A stretch of 64,000 nt of DNA from Pseudoalteromonas rubra (GTDB lineage Bacteria > Pseudomonadota > Gammaproteobacteria > Enterobacterales > Alteromonadaceae). Made by a program: the position numbers and the translations under genes. The notes beneath the pieces were generated by a model. That model ran no database searches, had not been told where the DNA came from, and was given only the letters and a program-made list of their open reading frames with translations. The stretch is from contig NZ_CP045429.1 in NCBI RefSeq assembly GCF_005886805.2, positions 3,318,501 to 3,382,500 on the forward strand, in the 5' to 3' direction. This document shows, piece by piece, positions 50,129-61,084 of this stretch. Position 1 is the first letter of the stretch. Each line of letters begins with the position of its first letter.

Positions 50129-50205
50129 TGGCGGAGTGGACGGGACTCGAACCCGCGACCCCCGGCGTGACAGGCCGGTATTCTAACCAACTGAACTACC
50201 ACTCC
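50129..50205 (-). tRNA. tRNA-Asp (GTC), copy 6 in transcription order
   Basis: A 77-nt tRNA with the acceptor stem GGAGTGG/CCACTCC, anticodon loop CCTGTCACG, T-loop GGTTCGAGTCC and an encoded CCA. It matches E. coli tRNA-Asp nearly base for base outside the stems. It is the promoter-distal copy of six identical genes. Confidence 0.97.
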
Positions 50206-50242
50206 GCAGAGATATAATGCAATTTTTTACTCGTTAAAATGT

Positions 50243-50319
50243 TGGCGGAGTGGACGGGACTCGAACCCGCGACCCCCGGCGTGACAGGCCGGTATTCTAA
50301 CCAACTGAACTACCACTCC
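50243..50319 (-). tRNA. tRNA-Asp (GTC), copy 5
   Basis: Identical 77-nt tRNA-Asp with encoded CCA. It is separated by 37 bases from copy 6 and 87 bases from copy 4, the longest spacer of the array. Confidence 0.97.
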
Positions 50320-50406
50320 ACGAGTAAATAACGATGTTAGTGACGTCGTTTTGTCATAAACTCAGACTACATTGAATCTGATAATCCAAACTAAACCCTG
50401 GCTAGA

Positions 50407-50483
50407 TGGCGGAGTGGACGGGACTCGAACCCGCGACCCCCGGCGTGACAGGCCGGTATTCTAACCAACTGAACTACCACTCC
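50407..50483 (-). tRNA. tRNA-Asp (GTC), copy 4
   Basis: Identical 77-nt tRNA-Asp with encoded CCA; 35 bases separate it from copy 3. Confidence 0.97.
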
Positions 50484-50518
50484 ACGGTGGTTTAGCTCGG
50501 TGTACTTCTTAAAGATCT

Positions 50519-50595
50519 TGGCGGAGTGGACGGGACTCGAACCCGCGACCCCCGGCGTGACAGGCCGGTATTCTAACCAACTGAACTACCACTCC
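50519..50595 (-). tRNA. tRNA-Asp (GTC), copy 3
   Basis: Identical 77-nt tRNA-Asp with encoded CCA; 27 bases separate it from copy 2. Confidence 0.97.
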
Positions 50596-50622
50596 AAAGA
50601 AGTACTGCACAGAATAAGCGAT

Positions 50623-50699
50623 TGGCGGAGTGGACGGGACTCGAACCCGCGACCCCCGGCGTGACAGGCCGGTATTCTAACCAACTGAACTACCACTCC
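50623..50699 (-). tRNA. tRNA-Asp (GTC), copy 2
   Basis: Identical 77-nt tRNA-Asp with encoded CCA; 27 bases separate it from copy 1. Confidence 0.97.
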
Positions 50700-50726
50700 A
50701 GCGTGCGCTTATAGAGAAAAAGTATG

Positions 50727-50803
50727 TGGCGGAGTGGACGGGACTCGAACCCGCGACCCCCGGCGTGACAGGCCGGTATTCTAACCAACTGAACTACCAC
50801 TCC
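50727..50803 (-). tRNA. tRNA-Asp (GTC), copy 1, promoter-proximal
   Basis: Identical 77-nt tRNA-Asp with encoded CCA. It lies about 45 bases downstream of the predicted transcription start of the array. Confidence 0.97.
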
Positions 50804-59926: not shown

Positions 59927-59964
59927 GTGATAATGGTGAGATGTGATAATGGTGAGATGTGAGA
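59927..59964. repeat. 16-bp direct duplication
   Basis: GTGATAATGGTGAGAT occurs twice head to tail, followed by a partial third copy (GTGAGA). It lies between the DUF3301 gene and the terminator of the CsrB-like RNA. No function is evident. Confidence 0.7.
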
Positions 59965-60000
59965 TTAAAGAATGGTTTCGAGGTGTACTTTCACAAAGCA

Positions 60001-60032
60001 AAAAACCAAGGCGTAACCCTTGCGCTACGCCC
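60001..60032 (-). terminator. Terminator of the CsrB-like RNA
   Basis: On the minus strand GGCGTA and TACGCC form a 6-bp stem with a 10-base loop, followed by TTGG and six Ts. It is the only terminator-like structure at that end of the GGA-rich region. Confidence 0.6.
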
Positions 60033-60304
60033 CAATCTGACGAATTTCCTGGGAGGTATCCAATTCCTCTGCCTACAACAAACTAGCAAGCCGCCAAGCT
60101 TCATCATCCCCTGAACGGGTATACATCCTGACATACCCGATCTTCTTCCCTGACTTCATCCGATAGGTTACATCCTGTAGATATCCTTACCGCATCCAAG
60201 CACATCCTTTGTCGACTTGTGTAAACTCTGTCACACCGCTCGACTTGTCTTCCCTATTCCTTTTATAAACAACGTCCTTTTTGTGTCCTAAGCCATCCTG
60301 GCCT

Positions 60305-60870
60305 TGTCCACTTCGCTTATCCTAAGCGCTCCTGACTTCCGCTGTTAAACATCATCCTGATGTTACCCGAGTCTCCCTTGACTCTGTCCACTTCGCTTAT
60401 CCTAAGCGCTCCTGACTTCCGCTGTTAAACATCATCCTGATGTTACCCGAGTCTCCCTTGACTCTGTCCACTTCGCTTACCCTAAGCGCTCCTGACTTCC
60501 GCTGTTAAACATCATCCTGATGTTTCCTGAGTCATCCTGACTCTGTCCACTTCGCTTATTCTAAGCGCTCCTGACTTCCGCTGTTAAACATCATCCTGAT
60601 GTTTCCTGAGTCATCCTGACTCTATCCACTTCGCTTATCCTAAGCGCTCCTGACTTCCGCTGTTAAACATCATCCTGATGTTTCCTGAATCATCCTGACT
60701 CCATCCACTTCGCTTATCCTAAGCGCTCCTGACTTCCGCTGTTAAACATCATCCTGATGTTTCCTGAATCATCCTGACTCTATCCACTTCGCTTATCCTA
60801 AGCGCTCCTGACTTCCGCTGTTAAACATCATCCTGATGTTTCCTGAGTCATCCTGACTCTATCCACTTCA
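60305..60870 (-). repeat. Seven tandem 79-80 bp units inside the CsrB-like RNA
   Basis: Units start at 60305, 60385, 60465, 60544, 60623, 60702 and 60781, with a partial eighth at 60860. Each encodes, in RNA order, GAGTCA-GGA-TGACTC, AACATCA-GGA-TGATGTT and CGCTTA-GGA-TAAGCG hairpins and further linear GGA motifs, six or seven per unit. The two units nearest the RNA 3' end are 80 bp and have lost the GGA of the first hairpin (CAAGGGAGACTC type). Confidence 0.95.
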
Positions 60871-61066
60871 CCCTTTCCTGGCACTGATGTCCTTCCGTCC
60901 TTGAACACGATTAAGTTTACGCAATCCTGAATAATGGAAAAGGCGCTTTTTCTCACACTTTTTTTCGTCATCTTCTTGAAACATTCACAAAAACAATAAA
61001 TTTCAACAACTTAACTTATTGCAGAGGGTTAAAACACTGATACTAAAACGCCTTGACCTACATTCA

Positions 61067-61084
61067 TGTGAGAAAAGTCTCACA
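61067..61084. promoter_or_regulatory. GacA/UvrY-type response-regulator box
   Basis: TGTGAG-N6-CTCACA is a perfect 6-bp inverted repeat with the spacing of the GacA/UvrY/VarA upstream activating sequence (TGTAAG-N6-CTTACA). It lies about 150 bases upstream of the predicted start of the CsrB-like RNA, the kind of distance seen in other csrB/rsmZ promoters, and overlaps the stop codon of the acetyltransferase gene. Confidence 0.65.

Follow-up and report, generated by a model that had tools for sequence, protein, structure and literature searches.

A predicted CsrB-type RNA enlarged by tandem repeats in the Pseudoalteromonas rubra group

In the 64-kb stretch of Pseudoalteromonas rubra DNA that we analysed (64,000 nucleotides, here called the window), a minus-strand locus most probably encodes the csrB RNA of P. 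rubra-group Pseudoalteromonas, a BarA-UvrY-activated sponge for CsrA that has been enlarged by tandem amplification of a module, a reading to which we give a probability of roughly 93%. In the mechanism we propose, BarA-UvrY would activate csrB through an upstream box, and the transcript would start near 60906, run leftward, end at a terminator near 60000 and fold as a string of small hairpins with AGGA(U) loops and single-stranded GGA between them, its GGA sites sequestering CsrA dimers and so relieving the action of CsrA on mRNAs. The module, GGAGCGC-hairpin-GCGAAGNGGA with its flanks, would have been amplified in tandem in an ancestor common to the P. rubra and P. luteoviolacea groups, and unequal exchange or slippage would later have homogenised the units within each species and altered their number. 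We infer expression and CsrA binding of the RNA in this organism; for its orthologue Pf1 only, others have reported expression and binding or antagonism of CsrA.

A GGA-rich non-coding locus in the csrB neighbourhood

The sequence-only reading of this DNA had described the minus strand of 60000-60926 as a protein-free, giant CsrB-type RNA with about 67 GGA triplets, 15 of them within CAGGATG and many shown as loops of short perfect hairpins. Our recount returned identical figures (67 GGA and 15 CAGGATG, together with 42 AGGA and 1 TCC), against means of 34.3 GGA (maximum 47) and 0.16 CAGGATG (maximum 3) in dinucleotide-preserving shuffles (2000 per motif); stretches of 927 nt slid along both strands of the window hold 9.8 +/- 6.5 GGA. 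Loops of perfect Watson-Crick stems of at least 4 bp enclose 17 of the 67 GGA, compared with 0.67 (maximum 3) in 500 shuffles, and the same rule places 7 of the 22 GGA of E. coli CsrB in loops. No open reading frame of at least 60 aa (ATG, GTG or TTG starts) overlaps 60000-60926. The proposed extent needed trimming, as about 60907-60926 is promoter; the RNA predicted from 60906 to 60000 still carries all 67 GGA and, at 2.46 times the length of E. coli CsrB (369 nt), agrees with the earlier estimate of about 2.5 times (Table 1).

Table 1. Features of the csrB locus, in coordinates of the window
Feature	Position	Strand	Basis or remark
Predicted CsrB-type RNA, 907 nt, 67 GGA, 15 CAGGATG	60000..60906	minus	counts, loop statistics, partial Rfam CsrB matches
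UvrY/GacA box TGTGAGACTTTTCTCACA	61067..61084	minus	-178 to -161 from predicted start; perfect match
Predicted -10 element TAAACT	60914..60919	minus	TAAACT near first GGA in 45 of 63 regions
Tandem array of 7.4 copies of a 79-bp unit, 95% matches	60282..60869	minus	Tandem Repeats Finder
Six complete units	starts at 60809, 60730, 60651, 60572, 60493, 60413; last partial unit at 60333	minus	
First complete unit: hairpins CGCUU-AGGAU-AAGCG, GAGUC-AGGAU-GAUUC and ACAUC-AGGAU-GAUGU, and single-stranded GGA	60731..60809	minus	
3' module, conserved in much of the genus, with the terminator at its end	60000..60149	minus	53 distinct 150-nt 3' ends aligned
Intrinsic terminator GGGGCGUA...UACGCC, then U-run	60003..60038	minus	terminator scan

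The gene order yqcA-truC-yqcC ... csrB ... syd agrees with that of E. coli, as the sequence-only reading had placed it, with additional genes intervening in the interval (DUF3549, DUF3301, a GNAT acetyltransferase, DUF2789, DUF2310 and a 91-aa ORF with no Pfam match). The genome holds one match to CsrA (89.6 bits, a 63-aa ORF), a UvrY (67% identical over 212 of 218 residues) and a BarA (38% identical over residues 1-916 of 918). The features of a CsrB-type RNA found here are GGA in loops, a box together with BarA and UvrY, non-coding sequence with a terminator, synteny and csrA, and the earlier assignment of a Csr-type RNA to the minus strand is borne out by the excess of GGA and hairpins, the synteny, the GacA box and the CsrA gene. 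Directly downstream of the csrB terminator, at 59927-59962, lies a 16-bp unit repeated 2.2 times.

The Rfam scan proposed with the sequence-only reading did find CsrB matches on the RNA strand, the best of them short of the family's cut-off: partial matches to RF00018 score 55.1, 36.8, 26.0 and 16.7 bits (best E 1.4e-13), below 71 bits. They appeared in E-value mode, the whole window at gathering threshold giving six tRNAs only. In Pseudoalteromonas the RF00018 cut-off does not separate members from non-members and is no test, because none of 60 genomes passes it, the locus of the published RNA Pf1 scores 27.3 bits and a giant of the luteoviolacea group scores 15 bits. Since only 11 of the 60 genomes have any match, the search for relatives was switched to synteny and GGA clustering. 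RsmY and RsmZ are not the best clan match in any of the four window stretches listed, all of which kept CsrB; in one relative (L010), RsmY scores 17.1 bits (E 0.17) beside 15.0 for CsrB. The six tRNA genes stand in a row at 50132-50803 on the minus strand, with equal scores and identical sequences in the five alignments shown, and their anticodon GUC makes them tRNA-Asp.

The GacA/UvrY-type box that had been noticed upstream proves to match TGTRAGN6CTYACA perfectly, as no other site of the 5.94-Mb genome does, at a distance from the predicted start similar to that of the E. coli csrB box (-191 to -174). With one mismatch allowed there are 22 further sites, and since the resulting 23 matches compare with 24 for a reversed control, a one-mismatch site alone carries little meaning; at least one such match also occurs in 43 of 100 shuffles of the window. 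When 63 GGA-rich regions from 61 Pseudoalteromonas loci are compared, the best-matching box upstream has no mismatch in 19, one in 35 and two in 6, the three regions that have none being cut by a contig end. Among 15 box loci of the genome (L096-L110, the 8 sites on contig C2 being left out), a GGA cluster accompanies two, the giant csrB and a locus at 817 kb of contig C1. The latter gives the genome another CsrB-like locus, of normal size (L003 1501-1736; G000:C1:817296-817531, minus), with a one-mismatch box (L003 2050-2067) about 310 nt upstream of its Rfam match. Our reading of the ORFs puts a DTW-domain-like gene on one side of it and an iron-transporter-like substrate-binding gene on the other.

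The start at 60906 is predicted from TAAACT and from the GTC or GTT that, judged by eye, often follows it. For the 3' module, the aligned ends were chosen by the terminator pattern [AG]CGCCTT[AG]G, 12 regions without the pattern being left out and 6 more dropped as duplicates or too short; over the resulting 53 sequences variation in the terminator stem is compatible with pairing, with 4 unpaired cells at one pair, and RNAalifold found little support in these 3' ends for structure other than the terminator.

Tandem units and hairpins

What lies behind the size of the RNA, and was overlooked when it was first described as giant, is a 79-bp tandem repeat. Such an array could in principle be a DNA-level repeat, whether a minisatellite or a protein-binding array, or a repetitive coding sequence, with no Csr RNA involved. 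We regard this as scarcely credible: 79 is not a multiple of 3 and the stretch lacks an ORF of at least 60 aa, GGA is strand-specific (67 against 1 TCC), and the array comes with covarying hairpins, a box, a terminator and synteny with a tested Csr RNA.

RNAalifold, applied to 26 distinct units of five species, returns three hairpins per unit with AGGA-type loops, and 389 of 390 cells in these hairpins are paired. Among the rubra-group units alone, stem changes are one-sided with no double changes, and the covariation score observed is equalled or exceeded by every one of 500 shuffles. Covariation is seen in the stems of 49 distinct cores of the form GGAGC[AG]C-hairpin-G[CT]GAA[GT]NGGA gathered from the genus, 44 of which carry GGA in the loop. 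The search pattern itself dictates pairs 1 and 3 and admits only G/A against C/T at pair 2. Within these bounds pair 2 is GC in 26, GU in 13, AU in 10 and A-C in none; pair 4 is CG in 17, UA in 16, AU in 9, UG in 2 and otherwise in 5; and pair 5 is frequently unpaired. As the 49 sequences are related, these counts are not independent events.

When the whole RNA is folded, triplets are unpaired with a mean probability of 0.42 overall and 0.66 for GGA (0.80 for GGA in E. coli CsrB). Against the proposed string of hairpins, the minimum-energy fold contains long-range pairing between repeats and leaves only 11 of the 67 GGA wholly in hairpin loops, where that of E. coli CsrB has 9 of 22.

All six complete units of the window differ from one another in sequence, as do 8 of 8 units in one relative (L009). 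Unit identity is 0.92-0.96 within species and 0.76-0.91 between species of the rubra group, and the 3' 250 nt of the window RNA are 93-94% identical to those of the other four rubra-group species. Because the units are more alike within species than between them next to so similar a 3' end, we read units homogenised within species, with a copy number that differs between species, as concerted evolution, which would make this locus a case of that process in a regulatory RNA. Similarity between neighbouring units, taken as a sign of local duplication, significantly exceeds that between distant units in only two of seven species, those of the window (p 0.013) and of L005 (p 0.032), and not in L009, L010, L013, L022 and L067; last partial units and pieces of at least 100 nt, including a 158-nt double unit of L006, were dropped from these unit comparisons.

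The copy number might instead have been inflated by an assembly artefact. Short-read assemblies break at tandem repeats, so the copy numbers of draft relatives could be wrong, and three relatives do start at a contig end inside the array. An artefact is nevertheless very improbable for the window, where the genome is in 2 contigs and the units are all distinct, as they are in L009, and the same architecture recurs in 12 assemblies.

Relation to known Csr RNAs

The RNA resembles E. coli CsrB in its neighbourhood, the distance of its UvrY box and its AGGA-loop hairpins, and differs from it in having 907 nt and 67 GGA rather than 369 nt and 22 GGA, in its tandem units and in its score below the Rfam cut-off. 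E. coli CsrB binds about 18 CsrA subunits with its 22 GGA (PMC7652899); scaled by GGA count, one molecule of the window RNA could bind roughly 55.

Within the genus, the Pf1 sRNA of Pseudoalteromonas fuliginea BSW20308 has been published as a CsrA antagonist on the basis of a glycogen assay in E. coli (PMC9927453). Pf1 raised E. coli glycogen, as CsrB does, which its authors read as CsrA binding (PMC9927453); the gel shifts described concern Pf2 and Pf3. Of our 95 loci one, that of P. fuliginea KMM 216 (L033), contains the GacA box printed for Pf1, in syntenic position and with a cluster of 25 GGA downstream of it; Pf1 is given 25 GGA in PMC11882849 and 21 in the 2023 paper (PMC9927453). On this evidence the window RNA is, judging from P. 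fuliginea KMM 216, the positional orthologue of Pf1. The two are alike in locus position, GacA box, GGA-rich loops and terminator, whereas the KMM 216 locus is about 470 nt with 25 GGA, and no tandem array was found in it. The names rubra and luteoviolacea do not occur in the main text of PMC9927453 or PMC11882849. A de novo origin of Pf1 in Pseudoalteromonas has been suggested (PMC11882849); the neighbourhood and promoter layout that its locus has in common with E. coli csrB argue for descent instead, and Pf1-type RNAs of Pseudoalteromonas are thereby indicated as positional relatives of enterobacterial csrB that the Rfam cut-off has missed. The published Pf1 RNA appears to be located in the csrB neighbourhood, at L033 7533-8134.

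Two further systems offer comparisons. In Vibrio, csrB1-4 also provide more CsrA sites, but by duplication of whole genes and not of a module inside one RNA (PMC6262261); the case of Aliivibrio salmonicida, whose csrB3 adjoins csrB2, is one among these duplications (PMC6262261), and the word tandem does not occur in the main text of that paper. In the related genus Alteromonas, A. macleodii has the Csr-like RNAs Aln1a-c, with many A(N)GGA and the highest expression in their data set (PMC5864184), which differ from the window RNA in being three RNAs, each with its own start, inside a region of 404 bp (PMC5864184).

The Alteromonas arrangement is a precedent for a different product of our locus, namely a transcript that is cut or internally started so that several unit-sized Csr RNAs arise and no 0.9-kb molecule accumulates. 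Sites resembling TTAACA-N18-TAGGAT in the window units (6 found, 2.2 +/- 1.6 expected) point the same way. We consider this outcome unlikely, as the same scan did not find such sites in the repeats of L006, L009 or L010, and there is one box and one terminator, at the ends. A promoter inside each unit is disfavoured by the same absence. The generic promoter scan did not list the TAAACT -10 element among its sites, listing the promoter-like sites in the repeats instead.

Among the PMC matches listed in our literature search, whose scope excluded most subscription papers and bioRxiv preprints, no title or abstract start mentioned a tandem-repeat or kilobase CsrB. CsrA antagonist RNAs are known to reach a higher dose through duplication of their genes; in the present case amplification of a hairpin module inside one RNA seems to have raised the dose per molecule.

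Distribution of the long form and the number of units

Relatives were checked for the same locus, as had been suggested, and the giant form was found in all 12 complete loci of one clade. Of the named loci, 80 were found with TruC, and our rule recognised a GGA-rich region in 65 of them, including 60 of the 66 Pseudoalteromonas loci in this TruC-found set. In a tree of 68 rows built from four neighbouring proteins, with many rows incomplete and one long branch (L070), the P. rubra and P. luteoviolacea groups fall together in a single 15-row clade (SH-aLRT 99). Its 12 complete loci have RNAs of about 746-1071 nt (746, 774, 779, 892, 896, 904, 907 in the window, 986, 987, 987, 999 and 1071 nt) with 54-80 GGA; the other three rows (L008, L018 and L023) begin within the array, where their contigs end. 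In the rest of Pseudoalteromonas, 33 of 40 estimates fall at 334-474 nt with 19-31 GGA. The seven longer estimates belong to the P. piscicida group (4 loci, 538-545 nt, 38-40 GGA), L026 and L028 (579 and 582 nt, with a 108-110-nt repeat x 2.3) and L062 (634 nt, with a 124-nt repeat x 2.5). These lengths take the last of several -10 candidates, and loci without a -10 candidate or terminator pattern received no estimate.

Each of the 12 giants has 5-9 copies of the core module, loci of the piscicida group have 3-4, and in L012, L016, L017, L019, L020 and L034 there is a single copy per RNA; by pattern, the rest have none, apart from the cut loci L018 (1 copy) and L023 (3). Two of the single-core loci, L016 and L020 (P. 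phenolica), contain two adjacent csrB-type regions, each with a GacA box of one mismatch upstream. No GGA-rich region was found in L029, L030, L035 and L045, where 10 kb upstream of truC were covered. These loci, the first three from the P. aurantia group, have neither a GGA-rich region nor a box near truC, and their csrB may be lost, moved or degenerate. In L015, where only 3.5 kb upstream of truC are available, the region may be cut off.

We suggest, tentatively, that the array could be a minisatellite inside a global regulatory RNA, in which the number of 79-89-nt units would set how many CsrA dimers a CsrB molecule binds and could act as a fast evolutionary dial, through unequal exchange, for the capacity and steepness of the CsrA switch, in this clade and separately in other lineages. 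It is also possible, though we lean against it, that the RNA is an ordinary CsrB in which repeat expansion has been neutral or mildly costly, extra sites contributing little because CsrA is already saturated or the level of the RNA lowered. Tandem arrays can grow by slippage without selection, unit number does differ between species, and the genome has its second CsrB-like locus of normal size. The neutral account must be set against the persistence of the giant form in 12 of 12 complete clade loci despite a truC divergence among clade members of up to about 26% of nucleotides, the retention of hairpins through sequence change, and the presence in other lineages of shorter repeat-built CsrB-like RNAs with other unit lengths. 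For the proposed CsrA sponge, close relatives whose RNAs range naturally from 5 to 9 core copies supply variants in which the number of sites per RNA could be related to the titration switch.

The sequence-only reading knew of no CsrB family member of this size. The window's clade has GGA-rich spans of up to 1045 nt, the longest among the surveyed loci, and the clearest tandem build; very long CsrB-like RNAs do occur outside this genome, with estimates of up to 1071 nt in a sister species and a GGA-rich span of 780 nt in another genus. Long CsrB-like RNAs recur in the family, and size alone is not unique, given that shorter repeat-built RNAs and repeat-free ones (to 780 nt) occur elsewhere. 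This rests on two surveys, neither of them complete, in which a GGA cluster may fuse neighbouring RNAs or split one. Of 148 genomes, 109 had a TruC match and 80 of these entered the second survey, a few stretches being cut by contig ends. A GGA-rich cluster was found in 35 of the 80; the 48 clusters with a box of at most 2 mismatches span 301.5 nt at the median and 780 nt at most. Two loci of one genus in the same family stand out, L278 (780-nt span, 53 GGA) and L273 (723-nt span, 51 GGA), both with a one-mismatch box and a terminator-like end, and no tandem repeat was found in either.

The first survey searched 394 genomes of the order with an AGGATG-triplet pattern that is biased to other spacings and gives no match on the window's own RNA. 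It matched 126 genomes, with a longest GGA-rich span of 675 nt in 70 loci, some of which overlap, and revealed repeat-built CsrB-like RNAs in two genomes of another genus of the family (51-nt x 3.8 and 99-nt x 3.7). In that genus, L143 (G388) and L141 (G111) have CsrB-like RNAs of tandem units of about 50 nt, and their arrays seem to have been amplified independently; the truC match of G111 is on a contig other than that of L141. Another locus, L145 (G068), holds several csrB-like clusters one after another at intervals of about 700 nt, with 4 pattern places and 5 GGA clusters.
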